Of a stretch of DNA of 64,000 nucleotides, positions 2,861 through 15,884 are shown one piece after another. Below the pieces are notes generated by a model. That model searched no databases. It had not been told where the DNA came from and saw nothing but the letters and a program-made list of their open reading frames with translations. Each line of letters starts with the position of its first letter. Position 1 is the stretch's first letter. The stretch is from Nakamurella flava (GTDB taxonomy: Bacteria; Actinomycetota; Actinomycetes; Mycobacteriales; Nakamurellaceae), in the NCBI RefSeq assembly GCF_005298075.1, contig NZ_SZZH01000001.1, positions 372,001 through 436,000 of the forward strand. The letters run 5' to 3'. A program made the translations under genes and the position numbers.

Positions 2861-3769
2861 GTGACGACGGACCCGCCCCGTACCCAGCACACCCCGGTCG
2901 ACCCGACGACGGCCCATCCGCGGCCGCCCCAGCCCGGGCAGCGTCAACCGGCTCCCGGTCTGGCCGGGCGGATGCAGCCGCGCCCGGACCACGGGGAGGA
3001 CAGCTACGTCGGTTCCGGCCGGTTGGCCGGACGGCGCGCGGTCGTCACCGGCGCCGATTCCGGTATCGGTCGGGCCGTCGCCATCGCGTTCGCCCGCGAG
3101 GGGGCCGACGTCGTGCTCGGCTACCTGCCCTCCGAACAGGCCGATGCCGACGAGGTGGTCGCCCTGGTCGAGCAGGCCGGACGGCGCGCGGTGCCGGTCC
3201 CCGGTGATCTGGGGACCGAGGACGGCAACACCGCCCTGGTGCGGGCGGCCGTCGAAACGCTTGGCGGTATCGACGTTCTCGTATCGGTGGCCGGGGTGCA
3301 GACCTGGGTCGATGACATCGCCGACCTGACCACCGAACAGTTCGACCGCACCTTTAAGGTCAACGTCTACGGCCTGTTCTGGCTGACGAAGGCCGCCCTG
3401 CCGCACATGGGGCCGGGCGGCAGCATCGTGGCCACGTCGTCGGTGCAGGCCTACCGGCCCTCGCCGGGTCTGCTCGACTACGCGACCACCAAGGCCTCCA
3501 TCAACACCTACGCCAAGGCGCTGGCCCAACAGGTCGCCCCCCGCGGCATCCGGGTGAACGTGGTCGCCCCGGGCCCGGTCTGGACGCCGCTGCAGGTCAC
3601 CGGCGGTCAACCACCGGAGAAGATCCCCGATTTCGGTGCGTCCGCGTGGCTCGGCCGGGCCGGCCAACCGGCCGAGGTCGCTGCCGCCTACGTCCATCTG
3701 GCCGGGGCGGAGTCCAGTTTCACCACCGGGGCGACCCTGTCGGTCACCGGCGGGAACCCGACGCCATGA
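2861..3769 (+). CDS. SDR-family oxidoreductase (general stress protein 39-like)
   Basis: This 302-residue short-chain dehydrogenase has the classical NAD(P)-binding TGADSGIG motif near residue 61 and the catalytic YATTK near residue 206. The N-terminal Pro/Gln-rich extension of about 50 residues, ending before the first Rossmann strand, is typical of the stress-protein-39/YghA subgroup. Substrate unknown. The GTG start follows a TACAGG hexamer by 6 nt with no ribosome-binding site, so the message may be leaderless. The stop overlaps the start of the following GH15 gene (ATGA), indicating translational coupling. Confidence 0.85.
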   Translation: MTTDPPRTQHTPVDPTTAHPRPPQPGQRQPAPGLAGRMQPRPDHGEDSYVGSGRLAGRRAVVTGADSGIGRAVAIAFAREGADVVLGYLPSEQADADEVVALVEQAGRRAVPVPGDLGTEDGNTALVRAAVETLGGIDVLVSVAGVQTWVDDIADLTTEQFDRTFKVNVYGLFWLTKAALPHMGPGGSIVATSSVQAYRPSPGLLDYATTKASINTYAKALAQQVAPRGIRVNVVAPGPVWTPLQVTGGQPPEKIPDFGASAWLGRAGQPAEVAAAYVHLAGAESSFTTGATLSVTGGNPTP

Positions 3770-8251: not shown

Positions 8252-8479
8252 ATGTCTGCGCACTGCCATGTGGACTGTGAGGACTGCACCGCACGCGGAC
8301 CGGCGTGCGACGACTGCATCGTGACGGCGCTGCTGGGCACGTCACCCAGTGGGGTGGCGTGGGACGACACCGAACGGGCGGCGGTCGACGTGCTGTCCCG
8401 CTCCGGTCTCATCCGGCCCTTGCGGCTGGTTCCGCGCCCCGAGCGACCCCATCCGGGTCCGGTGAGACGAGCCGGGTGA
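8252..8479 (+). CDS. Small cysteine-rich protein, putative metal-binding
   Basis: This 75-residue protein opens with a dense Cys/His cluster: HCHVDCEDC followed by PACDDC, five Cys and two His within about 20 residues, suggestive of one zinc or Fe-S site. The rest is an acidic helix (DDTERAAVDVLSRSG) and a Pro/Arg tail. I recall similar unnamed small proteins in other actinobacteria. A GGAGGGTGG stretch lies about 18 nt upstream of the ATG. It precedes the riboswitch-controlled NlpC/P60 gene, but no functional link is shown. Confidence 0.65.
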   Translation: MSAHCHVDCEDCTARGPACDDCIVTALLGTSPSGVAWDDTERAAVDVLSRSGLIRPLRLVPRPERPHPGPVRRAG

Positions 8480-8620: not shown

Positions 8621-8669
8621 TTGACGATTCACACACCGTCTGGACGGGAACAGAATCCTCTCGTAACCT
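8621..8669 (+). promoter_or_regulatory. Candidate promoter for the first riboswitch leader
   Basis: TGGACG at 8641-8646 and TAACCT at 8664-8669 are separated by 17 nt and would start transcription about 35-40 nt before the riboswitch. A separate TTGACG at 8621-8626 has no well-spaced partner. The rest of the 8480-8708 gap holds no recognisable gene. Confidence 0.35.
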
Positions 8670-8686
8670 ATCCGAGACCTTGAGGC

Positions 8687-8705
8687 GATCACCATTCAGG
8701 TGATC
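8687..8705. repeat. Perfect 7-bp-arm inverted repeat before the first riboswitch
   Basis: GATCACC, an ATTCA loop and GGTGATC form a perfect palindrome directly upstream of the ydaO element. It could be a protein operator just downstream of the start of transcription or a leader hairpin. The second riboswitch leader has no equivalent. Confidence 0.45.
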
Positions 8706-8709
8706 CGGG

Positions 8710-8892
8710 GGTCACCGCCGAGTCGGCTCCGCTGGGAGCCGAGCCGGGGAACCAGGTGCTTCATGGGGTGAATCCGCCCCCTGACGGGTGCCGTGTCGTC
8801 TGCGCTCTTGCGTGGATGGCCGCTGCGCGTCGGGTGGTGGTAGGGCGACTTCCGGCCCGAATCCGTCAGCTAACCCGGTAGGCGGCGAGAGG
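8710..8892 (+). ncRNA. ydaO: ydaO/yuaA (c-di-AMP) riboswitch 1
   Basis: The leader contains conserved blocks of the ydaO motif in order: GAGCCGGGGAACCA, then GGGGTGAATCC, then GTAGGG, and the signature GTCAGCTAACCCGGTAGGCG. CGCCG (8716-8720) can close P1 with CGGCG (8883-8887). ydaO RNAs bind c-di-AMP and usually switch off cell-wall hydrolase and potassium genes. The element ends about 17 nt before the GTG of an NlpC/P60 endopeptidase, which matches the known actinobacterial arrangement. Confidence 0.9.
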
Positions 8893-8908
8893 AAGGTTCC
8901 ACCGGACC

Positions 8909-10231
8909 GTGGCGTTCCCTGCCCGCAACACGACTGACGTGTTGCCGACCTGCCCGCGATCGACCCGTCGTCGGCTCGCTCGTTACCGTTCCGCGCTGCT
9001 GATCGCCGGCACGGTGAGCTCCCTGGGCCTGGGCGCGTTCGCCGCCGGCCCCGCCCTGGCGGACCCGACCACCGCAGCCGACGCCCAGCAGGCCTACCTG
9101 GACAGCGAGCAGCGCGCGGGTCAGCTCAACGAGCAGGTGCTCTCCGCTCAGGAGAACGAGCAGGCCGCCGCCGCAGCCGCCGCCGCCGCCGGTACCGCGG
9201 TCGACGCGGCCCGCCAGGCCGCCACCGACGCGCAGTCCAAGGCCACCGAGGCGGACGCCGCCGCCGGTGCCTACAAGGAGAAGGTCGACTCCTTCGCTAA
9301 CGCCAGCTTCCGCGGCGCCCGGTTCGACGGGCTGGCCGTGCTGCTGACCGCCGACTCGGCCGACGACTACCTCGACCAGGTCAGCTCCCTCGACCAGGTC
9401 GCCGACGACACCCGGCAGACGCTGGATGCCGCGCAGGCCGCCCGCGCCCAGGCCGCTCAGGCCCAGGCCGACGCCTCGGCCGCGCAGACCGCCGCCGAGC
9501 AGGCCAAGTCCGACGCCGACGCGAAGGCGGCCGCCGCCACCCAGGCCACCCAGGACGTCACCGCCCGCAAGGCCGAGCTCGACGCCGAGGCCCAGAAGTA
9601 CCGCGAGCTGTACAACAGCCTGTCCGAGCAGGAGCGGGCGGCCGCCGAGGCCGCCGCGCAGGCGGCCAATGAGGCCGCCAACCGCGCCGCCGCCGAGGCT
9701 GCGGCCGCCGCTGCTCCCGCCCCGACCACCAGCGAGGCGGCGGCTCCGGCCCAGGCGCCTGCCGCCGCCAACCGGTCCCGCACGTTGGTGTCGGACGATT
9801 CCGCCGACACCCCGTCGCGTTCCTCCAGCTCGAGCGCCGCGCCGACCTCGTCGGCCCCCGCCGCGGTGCCGGCAGGCAGCTCCAAGGGTGCCGCGGCCGT
9901 CGCCGCCGCCCTGTCGAAGGTCGGATCGCCCTACGTCTACGGCGCCGCCGGCCCGAACTCGTTCGACTGCTCGGGCCTGACCTCCTGGGCCTGGGCGCAG
10001 GCGGGCGTCACGATCCCGCGCACGTCGTCGGCCCAGGCCGGTCTGCCCAGCGTCCCGCTGGACCAGCTGCAGCCGGGTGACCTCGTCACCTACTACTCGC
10101 CGGTCAGCCACGTCGCCATGTACATCGGCAACGGCCAGGTCGTGCACGCCTCGACCGAGACCAAGCCGGTCTATGTCACCTCGGTGAACGGCGCCGGCCC
10201 GAACGCCACCGGCCACCGCGTCACCGGCTGA
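8909..10231 (+). CDS. Secreted NlpC/P60 peptidoglycan endopeptidase (RipA-like), copy 1
   Basis: The 440-residue protein has a long Sec signal (hydrophobic core SALLIAGTVSSLGLGAFAAG, probable cleavage after ALA near residue 50). An Ala-rich coiled coil spans about 55-260, an Ala/Pro/Ser linker follows, and an NlpC/P60 domain occupies about 325-440. The catalytic Cys is in FDCSGL (about 351) and the His in SPVSHVAMYIG (about 400). It should cleave D-Glu-to-meso-DAP type bonds during cell separation; the coiled coil probably autoinhibits or localises it. GAGAGGAAGG lies about 12 nt before the GTG. It is paralogous to the protein encoded at 11867. Confidence 0.92.
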   Translation: MAFPARNTTDVLPTCPRSTRRRLARYRSALLIAGTVSSLGLGAFAAGPALADPTTAADAQQAYLDSEQRAGQLNEQVLSAQENEQAAAAAAAAAGTAVDAARQAATDAQSKATEADAAAGAYKEKVDSFANASFRGARFDGLAVLLTADSADDYLDQVSSLDQVADDTRQTLDAAQAARAQAAQAQADASAAQTAAEQAKSDADAKAAAATQATQDVTARKAELDAEAQKYRELYNSLSEQERAAAEAAAQAANEAANRAAAEAAAAAAPAPTTSEAAAPAQAPAAANRSRTLVSDDSADTPSRSSSSSAAPTSSAPAAVPAGSSKGAAAVAAALSKVGSPYVYGAAGPNSFDCSGLTSWAWAQAGVTIPRTSSAQAGLPSVPLDQLQPGDLVTYYSPVSHVAMYIGNGQVVHASTETKPVYVTSVNGAGPNATGHRVTG

Positions 10232-10251
10232 CCGAGCCTCGCACGACATAT

Positions 10252-10298
10252 CCTGATCGCCGGTCCGGAACTCCGGGCCGGCGATCAGGCTTTCTCCC
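10252..10298 (+). terminator. Intrinsic terminator after NlpC/P60 copy 1
   Basis: A perfect 12-bp stem (CCTGATCGCCGG at 10252-10263 with CCGGCGATCAGG at 10278-10289) is followed by CTTTCTC. It isolates the riboswitch-controlled gene from pimB. Confidence 0.8.
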
Positions 10299-10382
10299 AG
10301 GGATCCTCCTGGGGCCGGGCGCGGCGGGCTTACTCACCGGGTGACGCCGGTTCGACACCGGAAGGGCTCGGGACGTCTCACC

Positions 10383-11507
10383 GTGCGGCGAACTCTGCTG
10401 ATCACCAACGACTTCCCGCCGCGAACCGGCGGGATCCAGTCGTACGTCATCACTCTCGCGCACCGGCTGCCCGCCGACTCTCTCGTCGTGTACGCCCCCA
10501 GCTTTCCCGGCGACGCGGAATTCGATGCCCGGCAACCGTTCCCGGTGATCCGCCACCCCGGTGGGCTGCTGCTGCCCGGCGTGGACGTGCGGAAGCGGGC
10601 CGCCGAACTCGTGCGCGAGCACCGGGTGCAGGCGCTGTGGTTCGGGGCGGCCGCGCCCCTGGCGCTGCTGGCCCCGCGGCTGCGGTCCGAGGGCATCGTG
10701 CGGACGGTCGCCAGCACCCACGGCCACGAGGTCGGGTGGGCCATGGTCCCGGGGGCGCGCCAGGCGCTGCGGGCGATCGGCCGCGGCAACGACGTCGTCA
10801 CCTACGTCAGCGAGTTCGCCCGGCGCCGCATCAGCGCCGCGCTCGGACCCCAGGCGGCCCTGGAGTATCTACCCCCGGGAGTGGTGACCGACCGCTTCCG
10901 GCCCGACCCGGACGCTGCCCGGGCGGTCCGCACCCGCTACGGGCTGGGTGAGCGGCCCGTCGTCGTCTGCGTCTCGCGGCTGGTTCCCCGCAAGGGGCAG
11001 GACGTGCTGCTGCGGGCGTTGCCCGCCGTCGCCGACCAGGTCCCGGACGTGCGTCTGCTGGTGGTGGGGGACGGCCCGGACGCGGGGCGGCTGGCCCGCC
11101 TGGCTCGGCATCATGCGGTGAGCGATCGGGTGGTGTTCGCCGGCATGGTCCCGGCCGCAGAGCTCGCGGCCCATTACGCGGCCGGTGATGCCTTCGCGAT
11201 GCCGTGCCGGACGCGGGGCGCGGGACTGGATGTCGAGGGCCTCGGCATCGTCTTCCTCGAGGCCTCGGCCACCGGCCTGCCGGTGCTGGCCGGCGACTCG
11301 GGGGGTGCCCCGGAGACGGTGCGACCCGGACGGACGGGAGTGGTCGTCGACGGACGCCGGCCGACGGAGGTGGCCCGCGAATTGGCGGGCCTGCTGAACG
11401 ACCCGGAACGTCGGCAGCGCTGGGGCCGAGCCGGCCGCGCCTGGGTCTGCGACGCGTGGAACTGGGACCGTTCCGGCCGACGACTGGCCGATCTGCTGTC
11501 GGGTTAG
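10383..11507 (+). CDS. pimB: GT4 mannosyltransferase, PimB-type (PIM biosynthesis)
   Basis: This GT-B-fold enzyme resembles mycobacterial PimB (Rv2188c), which adds the second mannose from GDP-mannose to phosphatidylinositol mannoside at the membrane. It opens VRRTLLITNDFPPRTGGIQS, as the family does, has SRLVPRKGQD for nucleotide-sugar binding, and a C-terminal E-x7-E segment DVEGLGIVFLEAS. I start it at GTG 10383, where the first Rossmann strand begins; GTG 10341 is an in-frame alternative adding 14 basic residues. It sits between two NlpC/P60 genes. In mycobacteria an NlpC/P60 gene (Rv2190c) is also nearby. Confidence 0.88.
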   Translation: MRRTLLITNDFPPRTGGIQSYVITLAHRLPADSLVVYAPSFPGDAEFDARQPFPVIRHPGGLLLPGVDVRKRAAELVREHRVQALWFGAAAPLALLAPRLRSEGIVRTVASTHGHEVGWAMVPGARQALRAIGRGNDVVTYVSEFARRRISAALGPQAALEYLPPGVVTDRFRPDPDAARAVRTRYGLGERPVVVCVSRLVPRKGQDVLLRALPAVADQVPDVRLLVVGDGPDAGRLARLARHHAVSDRVVFAGMVPAAELAAHYAAGDAFAMPCRTRGAGLDVEGLGIVFLEASATGLPVLAGDSGGAPETVRPGRTGVVVDGRRPTEVARELAGLLNDPERRQRWGRAGRAWVCDAWNWDRSGRRLADLLSG

Positions 11508-11582
11508 GGTGACTTCGTCCGGCCTCGATCGAGTGCGGTCAAGTTCCCACCGGTGAACGCCCTCACACCTGGTCACTGGACA

Positions 11583-11612
11583 TTGCCCTGGAATGTCGCC
11601 CGCTTGTAATCT
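11583..11612 (+). promoter_or_regulatory. Promoter of the second riboswitch leader
   Basis: TTGCCC at 11583-11588 and TAATCT at 11607-11612, 18 nt apart, form a good housekeeping-type promoter. The start would be near 11619, leaving a leader of about 250 nt that contains the ydaO element. Confidence 0.6.
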
Positions 11613-11710
11613 TTCTGTGATGTCGGCGTCCCGATCGCGTGGGCGATCCGTCGGCATCCCGCCGAATCGGGTCCTCCCGGGTGGTCCTCGTCGCTCTCCC
11701 GGTCGACGGC

Positions 11711-11866
11711 CCGCCTGCCGGAGCCCCGAACCGGGGAACCACGTTCCCCTGGGGTGAATCCCCGGTCGTGACCCGTTCGAGCGCGGCGCCGCCGTCCGTT
11801 CGGGCCGGGACCGGGGTAGGACACATCCTCGTCCGAACCCGTCAGCTCACCCGGTAGGCGGCAGGG
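11711..11866 (+). ncRNA. ydaO: ydaO/yuaA (c-di-AMP) riboswitch 2
   Basis: The same ordered ydaO blocks occur as in riboswitch 1: CCCCGAACCGGGGAACCA, CTGGGGTGAATCC, GGGGTAGGA and GTCAGCTCACCCGGTAGGCG. The variable stem between them differs completely, as expected for the family. CCTGCC (11714-11719) pairs with GGCAGG (11860-11865), so the closing P1 helix ends one base before the ATG at 11867 and includes the only purine-rich stretch upstream of the start. Ligand-stabilised P1 would therefore hide the ribosome-binding region. Confidence 0.9.
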
Positions 11867-13165
11867 ATGAAAGGCCGTTCGTTGTCGTTCCGCCGCACCG
11901 GGCTTCCGGCTGCCCGCGTTCAGGTCGTCGCCGCCGCGGTCGCCGCCGCCGCGCTGGCGTTGGTCGCCGTCGCTCCCGTCGCCGCCGCTGAGGACGCCGC
12001 TCCGGCCCAGCCCGCGCCGGCCGCCCAGGAGGCGGGGCCGGCTCTGCCGACCAGCGCGGACGCCGCCAAGCAGGCGTGGCTGGACGCGGCCCGCCGGTCC
12101 GAGACGTTCAACGAGCAGGTGCTGGCCGCGGATGCCGCCGTCACCGCCGCGCAGGCCGAGGCCGCGACGAAGGCCACCGCCGTGCAGTCCGCGGCGGCCG
12201 CCACCGCCGCCGCCGACCAGCAGGTCTCCGCGGCCGACGCGGTCGTGGCCCGGTACCAGGCCGAGGTCAGTGCCTTCGCCAACGCGAGCTACCGCGGCGC
12301 CCGACTGGACGAGCTCTCCGCGCTGCTGACCGCCGGTTCGCCGGAGGACTACCTGGACAAGGCGTCGTCGCTGGCCGTCATCGCCGCCGACCAGCGCGAG
12401 ACGCTCGATCAGGCCCTGGTGGCCCGACAGGCCGCCACCACCGCCCGGGCCCAGGCCCAGGCCGCCCAGGACGAGGCGCAGCGCGCCCAGGACGCCGCCG
12501 ACGCCGCGACCGCCGCCGCCGCCGCTGCCCGGGCCGATCTGGACACCCAGCAGGCCGCCCTGCATGCCGAGATCACCAGCTATCAGCTGGCCTACGCGCA
12601 GCTGTCCAGTTCCGACGTTAACGCGGCCGCCGCCGCGGCCGAGGCCGCCGCCACCGCGGCCAACGCCTCGTCCGATTCCGCCACCCGCCAGTCGCAGCAG
12701 GCCGCCCAGCGGTCCCGGGCCGGCATCGTCGGCGACGACCTGGCCGACGCGACCGCCCCGGCCGACACCGGGGCCGACTTCTCCGTCTGGGCCGCGCAGC
12801 ACGCCCCGAGCACCCAGGCCGGCATCGCCGTCACGGCCGCTCTCAGCCGGCAGGGTCTGCCCTACGTGTGGGGAGCCGTCGGGCCCGACACGTTCGACTG
12901 TTCCGGCCTCATGCTGTGGGCGTGGCAGCAGGCCGGGGTGACCATCCCGCGAAACAGCGCCGCGCAGGCCGACGGGTTGCGGCAGATCCCCCTGGAGCAA
13001 CTGCAGCCCGGTGACCTCGTCACCTTCTACTCACCGGTCAGCCACGTCGGCATGTACGTCGGCGACGGCAAGGTCCTGCACGCGTCCATGCCGGGGGTGC
13101 CGATCAAGGTCGTCCCGCTCGCCGCGGCCGGCCCGAATCCGACCGGACACGCCGTCAACCGCTGA
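11867..13165 (+). CDS. Secreted NlpC/P60 peptidoglycan endopeptidase (RipA-like), copy 2
   Basis: The 432-residue protein is a paralogue of the one encoded at 8909: signal peptide (core VVAAAVAAAALALVAVAPVA), Ala-rich coiled coil about 60-290, then NlpC/P60 domain about 320-432. The catalytic Cys is in FDCSGLML (about 343) and the His in SPVSHVGMYVG (about 391). Expected role: cleavage of peptidoglycan stem peptides during division. The ATG directly follows the riboswitch P1 helix. Copy 2 lacks the Pro-rich linker of copy 1, so the two may differ in localisation or activation. Confidence 0.92.
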   Translation: MKGRSLSFRRTGLPAARVQVVAAAVAAAALALVAVAPVAAAEDAAPAQPAPAAQEAGPALPTSADAAKQAWLDAARRSETFNEQVLAADAAVTAAQAEAATKATAVQSAAAATAAADQQVSAADAVVARYQAEVSAFANASYRGARLDELSALLTAGSPEDYLDKASSLAVIAADQRETLDQALVARQAATTARAQAQAAQDEAQRAQDAADAATAAAAAARADLDTQQAALHAEITSYQLAYAQLSSSDVNAAAAAAEAAATAANASSDSATRQSQQAAQRSRAGIVGDDLADATAPADTGADFSVWAAQHAPSTQAGIAVTAALSRQGLPYVWGAVGPDTFDCSGLMLWAWQQAGVTIPRNSAAQADGLRQIPLEQLQPGDLVTFYSPVSHVGMYVGDGKVLHASMPGVPIKVVPLAAAGPNPTGHAVNR

Positions 13166-13187: not shown

Positions 13188-14036
13188 GTGCGGCTCTCCT
13201 TCGTCTCGGACGTCCACGGCAACATCGACGGACTGGCCGAGGTGGCCCGCTCCGCCGAGCAGCTCGTCGTGCTCGGGGATCTCGTCGATTACGTCGACTA
13301 CCACGAACCGTCGCGGGGCATCCTCGGTCGCATCTTCGGCGCGGAGCGGGTGCTGCCGTTCGTGGAACTGCGGTCGGCGGGCCGCTTCCCGGAGCTGCGG
13401 CAGTACAACAACGACCTGTGGCTGAGCCTGGACGACCCCATCGGGGTGCTGTCCGAGACCGTCTCGGAGCTCTACCGCTCGGTGCTGGCGGCCATCGGAC
13501 CGGACGTACTGCTGACCCTGGGCAACGTCGACGTGGCCGAGGCGTGGAACGCGGTGGCCGGCGACGAGCTGCCGTACCTGGATTCCGAGGTCGTCGAGAT
13601 CGCCGGCCACCGGCTGGGTTTCGTCGCCGGCGGTGCCGGTCGGGACGTCCCTGGTGGCGGCGATGCCGCCGGGGTGCGGGAACGCGCGACGATCGCCGAC
13701 GGGTCCCCGCGGGTCTGGCGGCCGCTGGTGCGGCCGGCCGCCGAGTACCGGGCCGCGGTGGCGGCGGTGGGTGCGGTCGACATCCTCTGCTCGCATCTGC
13801 CGCCCGATCTCATACCGCTGCGCTACGACACCGTGCCCGCCCGGCTCGAGTCCAGTGGGCCGGGGCTGCTCGAAGCGATCGACGAGCACCAGCCGACCCT
13901 GTCGGTCTTCGGGCACGTCCACCAGCCCCTGGCCCGCCGGCAGCGACGCGGCCGCACGGAATGCGTCAACGTCGGGCATTTCCAGCGCTTCCCCCGCGCC
14001 TTCGAGGTGGACCTCACCCGGCTGCCGCGGCGTTGA
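13188..14036 (+). CDS. Metallophosphoesterase (calcineurin-like)
   Basis: The 282-residue protein carries the full dinuclear-metal motif set of calcineurin-like phosphoesterases: SDVHGN (D-x-H), LGDLVDY (GD-x-x-D), LGNVD (GN-D), CSHLPP (His) and FGHVHQP (GH-x-H). Substrate unknown; phosphodiesters or phosphoproteins are possible. The GTG at 13188 begins right at the first strand of the fold (RLSFVSDVHG), and the frame upstream is an overlap with the NlpC/P60 gene. The start appears leaderless. Confidence 0.85.
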   Translation: MRLSFVSDVHGNIDGLAEVARSAEQLVVLGDLVDYVDYHEPSRGILGRIFGAERVLPFVELRSAGRFPELRQYNNDLWLSLDDPIGVLSETVSELYRSVLAAIGPDVLLTLGNVDVAEAWNAVAGDELPYLDSEVVEIAGHRLGFVAGGAGRDVPGGGDAAGVRERATIADGSPRVWRPLVRPAAEYRAAVAAVGAVDILCSHLPPDLIPLRYDTVPARLESSGPGLLEAIDEHQPTLSVFGHVHQPLARRQRRGRTECVNVGHFQRFPRAFEVDLTRLPRR

Positions 14037-14131
14037 CGACACTGCCGCGGTCGTCATCGGCCGGGGCGAGAAATGCGTCACGACCGGCCCTCCGGGCTCC
14101 GGCCGGGGCAGCCGACCGGTCCCGACCTGGG

Positions 14132-14137
14132 TAGCCT
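14132..14137 (+). promoter_or_regulatory. -10 hexamer TAGCCT for a leaderless start
   Basis: TAGCCT ends 8 nt before the ATG at 14146; no Shine-Dalgarno sequence lies between. This would start a leaderless SRPBCC-ArsA-Zn-ribbon transcript. Confidence 0.5.
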
Positions 14138-14145
14138 TTCCGGTC

Positions 14146-14583
14146 ATGGGCACACCCTCGACGCAGTCGTTGACGATGGACGCCGCCCCCGACGCGATCA
14201 TGGACGTGATCGCCGACTTCGAGGCGTACCCGGAGTGGGTGGGGTCGATCAAGCGGGTCGAGATCACCGACCCCGGGGAGGGCGGCCGCGCCAGGCGCGT
14301 GAAGTTCAGCGTCGACGCCGGGATGCTCAAGGACACCTACGAACTGGCGTACCAGTGGGCGGCGGACGGCCGCACCGTGGCCTGGGACCTCGTGTCCGGT
14401 CAGATGCAGAAGGCGCAGCACGGCTCCTACGTGCTCACGCCCGTGCCGGACGGGACCGAGGTCGCCTACTCGCTCGAGGTCGACCTGCTCGTCCCGATGA
14501 TCGGCATGCTCCGCCGCAAGGCCGAGCGGGTCATCATGGACACCGCGCTCAAGGAGCTGCGGAAGCGGGTCGAGAAGGGGTGA
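14146..14583 (+). CDS. SRPBCC (START/polyketide-cyclase-like) protein, Rv2185c-like
   Basis: The 145-residue protein has the SRPBCC helix-grip pattern: an N-terminal strand, DFEAYPEWVGSIKRVEI, central strands around VKFSVDAGMLKDTYEL, and a long C-terminal helix (ERVIMDTALKELRKRV). Members bind hydrophobic ligands. It resembles mycobacterial Rv2185c in sequence and position, being followed by the ArsA-like ATPase. Its stop overlaps the ATPase start (GTGA), so the two are translationally coupled. Confidence 0.85.
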   Translation: MGTPSTQSLTMDAAPDAIMDVIADFEAYPEWVGSIKRVEITDPGEGGRARRVKFSVDAGMLKDTYELAYQWAADGRTVAWDLVSGQMQKAQHGSYVLTPVPDGTEVAYSLEVDLLVPMIGMLRRKAERVIMDTALKELRKRVEKG

Positions 14584-15884
14584 GCGGCCTGCGGGTCGTC
14601 CTGCACACCGGCAAGGGTGGAGTGGGCAAGACGACCGTGTCCTGCGCCACCGCGGTGGCCTGTGCCCGTCGGGGCCTGCGCACCCTGCTGCTGTCGACCG
14701 ATCCCGCGCACTCGGTGGCCGACGTCCTCGACGTGCCCGTCAGTGGCGACCCGGAGCCGGTGCCCGGTCAACCGGACCTGTGGGCCGCCCAGGTCGACAC
14801 CCGCCACCGGTTCGAGGAGAGCTGGGCGCAGATCCGCGCGTACCTGGTCGGCGTGCTCGCCGCCCGGGGGATGGCCGAGGTGCAGGCCGAGGAACTGACG
14901 GTGCTGCCGGGGGCCGAGGAGGTCGTCGCCCTGCTCGAACTGCGGCGGCTGGCCGCGTCCGGCCGGTTCGACGTGATCGTGGTCGACTGCGCCCCGACCG
15001 GCGAGACCCTGCGGCTGCTGGCCCTGCCGGAGACCATCGGCTTCTATGCCGGGCGTCTGCTCGGTGCGCCGCAGCGGATGCTGCGCAGCCTGGCGGCCAC
15101 GTTCACCGGGGTCCCGGGATCCGCGCCCAGCGCCGCCGTCCGGGACGCGGTGGGGGAACTGCTCACCGAGCTGATGGCCGCTCGCGCCCTGCTGGCCGAC
15201 CCGCAGGTCACCGGCATCCGGCTGGTGCTCACCCCGGAACGGGTCGTCATCGCCGAGGCGCGGCGCCTGTTCACCGCGTTGTCGCTGCACGGCTTCACCG
15301 TCGAGGGCGCGACCATCAACCGGGTGCTCCCCCCGAAGGCCGGCGGCGAGTTCCTCCGGGGCCAGCGGGCCGCGCAGCGGGAGGCGCTGGTGCACGTCCG
15401 GGAGTCGTTCGCCGGTCTGACGGTGCGCCGGGTGCCGATGGTGGCCCGGGAGCCCGTCGGCGTGGCCGCGCTGGCCGAACTGGCCGACGAGATCTTCGCC
15501 GCCGACGACCCGCTGGCCCGCACGACCGAGCCCACCCACATCCAGGTCGAGGGCGCGGACGGCCGGTACCAGCTCGCCCTGCCCCTGCCGTTGGTCGACA
15601 AGGGCGATCTCGCGCTGTCCCGGTCCGGTGACGATCTGGTCGTCACCGTGGGGGACGTGCGGCGCCGGATGGCGCTCCCGTCGGTGCTGCGGCGTTGCAC
15701 CGTGGGTGGGGCTCGCTTCGACGGCGGCCGACTGCTGGTCGAGTTCGTCGCCGACCCCGACCTGTGGCCGGCAACCCTGCGGGCGCGGGTCCTGTCGGAG
15801 ACCGACGGCGGGTCGCCGTCGGGTCTGGTCAGCCAGACCCGGTCGGACGACGACCGCCCGGCGGACCGTCTGGTCGGCGCGTGA
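14580..15884 (+). CDS. ArsA-like ATPase (TRC40/GET3 superfamily), Rv2184c-like
   Basis: The 434-residue protein begins with a P-loop GKGGVGKTT (residues about 10-18), followed by STDPAHS (switch I-like) and VVDCAPTGETLRLL (the A-loop DxAPTG of the ArsA family). The C-terminal 100 residues resemble the HSP20-like beta domain found fused to such ATPases. No arsenite-binding cysteines or other ars genes are seen, so arsenic export is unlikely; a membrane-protein targeting or assembly role is inferred. It overlaps its neighbours by 4 nt at both ends. Confidence 0.87.
   Translation: MSGLRVVLHTGKGGVGKTTVSCATAVACARRGLRTLLLSTDPAHSVADVLDVPVSGDPEPVPGQPDLWAAQVDTRHRFEESWAQIRAYLVGVLAARGMAEVQAEELTVLPGAEEVVALLELRRLAASGRFDVIVVDCAPTGETLRLLALPETIGFYAGRLLGAPQRMLRSLAATFTGVPGSAPSAAVRDAVGELLTELMAARALLADPQVTGIRLVLTPERVVIAEARRLFTALSLHGFTVEGATINRVLPPKAGGEFLRGQRAAQREALVHVRESFAGLTVRRVPMVAREPVGVAALAELADEIFAADDPLARTTEPTHIQVEGADGRYQLALPLPLVDKGDLALSRSGDDLVVTVGDVRRRMALPSVLRRCTVGGARFDGGRLLVEFVADPDLWPATLRARVLSETDGGSPSGLVSQTRSDDDRPADRLVGA

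Follow-up and report, generated by a model that had tools for sequence, protein, structure and literature searches.

Our analysis of a 64,000-nucleotide stretch of the Nakamurella flava genome (RefSeq assembly GCF_005298075.1, contig NZ_SZZH01000001.1, positions 372,001 to 436,000 of the forward strand; hereafter the window, whose first letter is position 1 of all coordinates given for it) reveals two riboswitch aptamers of the cyclic di-adenosine monophosphate (c-di-AMP) class on either side of a pimB-like mannosyltransferase gene, each ahead of a gene for a RipC-like NlpC/P60 hydrolase. The two sets, A and B, would be independent units of promoter, c-di-AMP riboswitch and hydrolase that arose around pimB from one old duplication, and on balance we consider it probable that both act as translational OFF switches by means of the aptamers' own pseudoknots. 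The genes, aptamers, promoters and structural elements described as parts of these units all lie on the plus strand.

Both aptamers are recognised by RF00379, the Rfam model of the c-di-AMP riboswitch, above its gathering threshold of 38 bits. In an Rfam scan of the window, the match in leader A covers 8706-8899 (64.4 bits, E 1.3e-12) and the match in leader B covers 11702-11875 (56.4 bits, E 2.1e-10), and no other Rfam match at threshold was found across the 64 kb. An earlier note on this DNA had ascribed the ydaO motif to both leaders, and these scores bear it out. As read from the letters, aptamer A extends over 8715-8885, bounded by the strands of its P1 stem (5' CCGCC at 8715-8719, 3' GGCGG at 8881-8885). 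Aptamer B, which extends over 11659-11861, has the same two strands at 11659-11663 and 11857-11861, and its 5' end differs from that of the Rfam match: an unfiltered search with a family model that we derived from the related aptamers of alignment A1 (35 rows) puts copy B at 11650-11875, and the core CGCCGA[AG]TC occurs on the plus strand of the whole window at 8716 and 11660 only. Together these place the 5' P1 strand at 11659-11663, followed by a long insert inside P2 (flanking strands UCGGG at 11667-11671 and CCCGA at 11725-11729), and to judge by these matches aptamer B really starts near 11659, about 43 bases 5' of the Rfam boundary. The two window aptamers are themselves rows of alignment A1, in which the 5' end of copy B was misplaced and later corrected, so all invariant columns are present in them by construction. 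Immediately 5' of aptamer A, at 8688-8706, there is an inverted repeat (GATCACC ATTCA GGTGATC).

The two hydrolase genes are located at 8909-10231 (hydrolase A, 440 amino acids, GTG start) and 11882-13165 (hydrolase B, probable TTG start). Both products look secreted, with a signal peptide recognised by eye, and both have a C-terminal NlpC/P60 domain (Pfam PF00877, cut-off 23: 78.7 bits, E 3.7e-22 in A; 80.9 bits, E 7.7e-23 in B). Among solved structures they come closest to that of the RipC-type protein of Mycobacterium tuberculosis (PDB 8idc, chain E, and other entries), which is related to them over nearly the whole length (residues 36-433 and 76-423, respectively), and RipC (NF038345), a name that we take from NCBIfam and from paper titles, is the top-scoring NCBIfam family for both (165.8 bits in A, 197.8 in B). 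Because RipC scores best for both proteins, yet under its strict curated cut-off of 425, they are best described as RipC-like rather than as RipC proper. The NCBIfam RipA model (NF033741) gives 39.5 and 57.6 bits, misses its curated cut-off of 625 and in A and B covers just the C-terminal part that holds the catalytic domain. Of the RipA-like endopeptidase that the earlier note had seen behind each leader, the NlpC/P60 assignment thus stands and the RipA-like one gives way to RipC. The start of hydrolase B deserves a comment: counted from the ATG at 11867 its open reading frame (ORF) has 432 amino acids, and at that position the relatives possess GGAAGAAAGG, GGAAGAAGGG or GGATGAAGGG, a ribosome-binding tract, with the frame opening further downstream. 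Since the relatives lack an ATG there, the TTG at 11882 is the likelier start, and hydrolase B probably begins at this codon and not at ATG 11867.

The gene between the hydrolases (10341-11507) encodes a mannosyltransferase with matches to the Pfam GT4 families, whose best solved relative is the phosphatidylinositol-monomannoside mannosyltransferase PDB 3oka (residues 16-386, E 1.7e-102). By this full-length relation it is PimB-type in its predicted activity, in agreement with the mannosyltransferase of phosphatidylinositol mannosides that had been named at this place before.

Each unit has its own candidate promoter, at 8641-8669 for copy A (TGGACG, 17 bases, TAACCT) and at 11583-11612 for copy B (TTGCCC, 18 bases, TAATCT, or alternatively TGCCCT with 17 bases). 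These are predicted promoters, recognised as sequence matches; their letters were checked, and they are identified by the conservation of a GTAAYCT box. This box stands 5' of each of the 21 Nakamurella hydrolase leaders that we examined, where shuffled sequences would be expected to give 0.14. The box 17-18 bases ahead of GTAAYCT has TGG in all 15 A leaders (TGGAC in 12 of them) and TGC in the five B leaders, and an unlinked leader of genome G013 has TAGACA. With a conserved promoter of its own and a different -35 box, copy B is by these matches a separate transcription unit, whose promoter has diverged consistently from that of A. From the -10 box to the corrected 5' end of aptamer B there are 45 bases, compared to 36-42 in the other leaders except G013A (71 bases), in which the same kind of misplaced aptamer end was corrected by the family model. 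A partial palindrome (TCTCG-N9-CGAGA), which may bind a regulator, surrounds the -10 box in most A leaders (8660-8680 in the window).

Hydrolase A is followed by a perfect 17-bp hairpin at 10252-10289 (fold z -5.66 over 10232-10320), which resembles a terminator although its T tract is weak. Stems of at least 13 bp were found after hydrolase A in 5 of 17 Nakamurella genomes, and the pattern scan detected no terminator there; as the hairpin is kept in few genomes, a terminator after A does not appear to be a general feature. Given this hairpin and the separate promoter of B, nothing in the sequence shows control of pimB by either switch.

The history of the two units was traced in these 17 Nakamurella genomes, which belong to a wider set of 61 (the genome of the window and 60 relatives). 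Hydrolase A is located near pimB in all 17, with an RF00379 match ahead of it in 15. Genome G003 (locus L036) has a degenerate 32-bit match to the family model only, and G011 (L044) has no aptamer match ahead of hydrolase A; in both, the hydrolase is retained and the switch is, to judge by the scores, lost. Hydrolase B is present on the other side of pimB in seven genomes (G000, G002, G007, G009, G012, G014 and G015), five of which have a riboswitch ahead of it, with none detected in G012 and G014. The seven B proteins form a single clade in the protein tree (support 100/96), sister to the remaining copies of the genus (99/93). The simplest reading of this topology is one duplication that predates the sampled species, followed by the loss of B beside pimB in many lineages. 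In the leader DNA tree the B leaders do not form one clade, and one clade is not rejected either (approximately unbiased test, p 0.098). The protein tree thus agrees with the earlier note in that the duplication is old. Its further claim, that both switches are maintained, holds in five of the seven genomes with B, and fails for the two without a detected switch and for the 10 of 17 genomes that lack B beside pimB.

The same absences, in G012 and G014 and in the ten genomes without B, would be expected if only A works and B is a decaying duplicate with its aptamer on the way out, and the window B aptamer has the lowest score among the pimB-linked aptamers of the genus above the Rfam threshold. 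Part of this low score is, however, a cost of the misplaced Rfam 5' end. In addition, the promoter is retained in 5/5 B leaders, the pseudoknot and its adjacent stem (AGGAC with GUCC) carry compensated changes, and the end branches of window A and B in the protein tree are alike (0.19 each), all of which makes decay of B an improbable explanation.

Two RF00379 matches within 5 kb occur in 6 of the 61 genomes (table read by eye), five Nakamurella and G046. The latter is a case outside the genus, with aptamers at 1696-1851 and 3042-3198 on the minus strand (L147, G046:C18), one for each of two tandem NlpC/P60 hydrolases that are near neighbours in the protein tree. Among 80 named loci examined, the family model has a match in 56, of which only the Nakamurella locus has two. 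In G005 (L038) there are two hydrolases, both upstream of pimB, and one switch.

The proposed mechanism depends on a complementarity between a loop of the aptamer and the tail that follows it. Most leaders have a CUUCC-like loop between AGGGC and GCCCGA and a GGAAG-like tail 3' of P1. In A the putative pseudoknot strands are the loop CUUCC at 8849-8853 and GGAAG at 8891-8895, the latter forming part of the ribosome-binding site (RBS) and lying in the sole purine tract ahead of the start. In B both strands are changed relative to the usual CUUCC/GGAAG: the loop reads CAUCC (11824-11828) and the tail GGAUG (11865-11869), which overlaps ATG 11867 and is compensated against the loop. Of 71 other loops, only two match this tail equally well in pairing. 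The pseudoknot is predicted in both copies from complementarity, with its topology taken from the ydaO sequence printed in PMC5393176 (RNA-Puzzles); the available text of that paper speaks of a pseudoknot, and in our own reading its sequence has an equivalent loop-tail complementarity, ACUCCUUCG and CGAAGGAG, for which reason we take the loop-tail pair to be the known pseudoknot.

Loop and tail co-vary within the genus. When own and swapped loops were compared, own loops paired better with the tail in 38 leaders (p 0.006) and in Nakamurella (p 0.007; 0.004-0.008 on 20 distinct leaders and 0.003 on 21), where the A leaders alone gave p 0.043 and the B leaders alone p 0.033. The control with reversed loops gave p 0.70 for the 21 Nakamurella leaders, and tail shuffles gave a Fisher p of 1e-8; the leader rows are related, so that none of these or the following loop-tail values is a strict probability. 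MAFFT misaligned the loop strand as well as the tail strand, and its alignment was left out of the pair counts.

All 38 leaders measured have 20-31 bases between the end of P1 and the start codon (GTG or TTG in 36 of them), too few to hold a usual terminator, and the pattern scan of the leaders found none. In the mechanism that we propose, the binding of c-di-AMP at high concentration would lock P1 and the aptamer's own pseudoknot, whose 3' strand would be the purine tract at the RBS; this strand overlaps the RBS in A, and in B it adjoins the RBS or covers the ATG. Translation of the hydrolase would stop while the pseudoknot is locked, and a fall in c-di-AMP would free the purine tract and allow the hydrolase to be made.

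Several observations weigh against this mechanism. Without the leaders G000B and G010A the Nakamurella loop-tail p rises to 0.048, and the leaders G015A and G007A pair poorly. Outside Nakamurella, where loop and tail are less variable, no significant co-variation was found (p 0.34 for 17 leaders, 0.71 for 52), nor was it found in all 72 distinct leaders (p 0.10 with Watson-Crick pairs, 0.16 with G-U pairs included) or in loop-only shuffles (Fisher p 0.39). In many leaders from outside the genus, another GGAG lies closer to the start, where the pseudoknot would not cover it. Finally, premature termination upon c-di-AMP binding is reported for rpfA of Streptomyces coelicolor (PMC10117811, in its available text), which favours the chief rival explanation: c-di-AMP might end transcription early, inside the aptamer or shortly behind it, either through Rho or at a terminator of unusual type. 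In Corynebacterium glutamicum, too, the riboswitch sequence is described as lowering transcript levels, independently of c-di-AMP (PMC9960051, in the part available). Against transcriptional action stand the short distance from P1 to the start codon and the failure of the pattern scan to find a terminator, and at the corresponding C. glutamicum locus the same text gives equal reporter transcript at low and high c-di-AMP, so that we regard termination as unlikely, if the most serious competitor of a translational switch.

A further candidate platform is a hairpin at the start codon that would rival P1, formed by CGCC with a post-start GGCG, or by CCAC with GTGG in window A. It is striking by eye, with a CGCC-type element ahead of TTGGCG or GTGGCG in many leaders; it failed the controls in 38 leaders, both against dinucleotide shuffles (Fisher p 0.07 for energy, 0.51 for stems) and against swapped leaders (p 0.28 and 0.33), and was rejected as very improbable. 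A pairing of the CGCC element with the 3' strand of P1, which would form an anti-P1 helix, was judged by eye and likewise discarded: the leaders whose P1 strand is changed to GGCAG (G007B, f13_G028) show no matching change.

If the pseudoknots act as translational OFF switches, there may be no separate expression platform at all, the pseudoknot itself hiding the RBS, and the different promoters and geometries might give two c-di-AMP set-points for the two hydrolases; we put this extension forward tentatively, as possible rather than probable. Graded or sequential control of A and B, as the earlier note had suggested, is a guess, and the only sequence differences that hint at it are those in the -35 boxes, the start codons and the geometry of RBS and pseudoknot.

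The closest known system is the cg2402/nlpC riboswitch of C. glutamicum, which is likewise linked to pimB, of the c-di-AMP class and directed at an nlpC target. As far as the available text of Reich et al. 2023 (PMC9960051) goes, it is a c-di-AMP OFF switch in Escherichia coli and in its native host that most likely acts on translation, and a CTCC in the riboswitch is proposed to pair with the GGAG of the RBS in a pseudoknot. There, however, one operon holds two hydrolases and a single switch, which serves the first of them, in contrast to the two promoter-switch-hydrolase units that flank pimB in Nakamurella. The hydrolases that stand in tandem in Corynebacterium and its relatives also fall into clades distinct from Nakamurella A and B. 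Gordonia, Tsukamurella, Williamsia, Rhodococcus and Corynebacterium share the neighbourhood nlpC1-nlpC2-pimB with a riboswitch, a single one ahead of the short first hydrolase, which forms a separate clade; at the Corynebacterium locus L096 the family model gave no match. Streptomyces resembles Nakamurella in that its ydaO-type riboswitches serve several hydrolase genes per genome, each with its own switch: a review (PMC10117811) counts seven such genes in S. coelicolor and, in its available text, reports binding and effect for rpfA only, as transcription termination. The N. flava genome itself has one diadenylate cyclase (DAC, c-di-AMP synthase) domain or gene and a third RF00379 match, which precedes an rpf-like gene (domain names assigned by eye). 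In this rpf-like leader (L053, about 3084-3102) GGGGAAGATTCTTC lies directly 5' of the ATG and is self-complementary across the RBS, and for this reason the leader may use another expression platform than the hydrolase leaders do.

Other genes border the two units. A short cysteine-rich ORF of about 75 amino acids, without an NCBIfam match, is located 5' of promoter A (8252-8479). Downstream of hydrolase B, at 13206-15884, there are a metallophosphoesterase-like gene, a small ORF without a Pfam match, which we tentatively take to be SRPBCC-like, and a Get3/ArsA-type ATPase gene; these may be co-transcribed from promoter B.

The riboswitch class, the type of target and the neighbourhood are already known, and the novelty of our results is modest: it comprises the doubled arrangement in Nakamurella with a promoter for each copy, for which we found no paper among the open-access papers searched, as judged by titles and the beginnings of abstracts, and a comparative hint of a pseudoknot that sequesters the RBS. 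The idea of such a pseudoknot was suggested for C. glutamicum, and the compensated CAUCC/GGAUG pair in B supports it comparatively, within Nakamurella. The arrangement connects c-di-AMP with RipC-like enzymes of cell separation in a genus that has been little studied, and the two paralogous switches, a pair provided by nature within a single cell, could show whether the aptamer pseudoknot is a translational expression platform.

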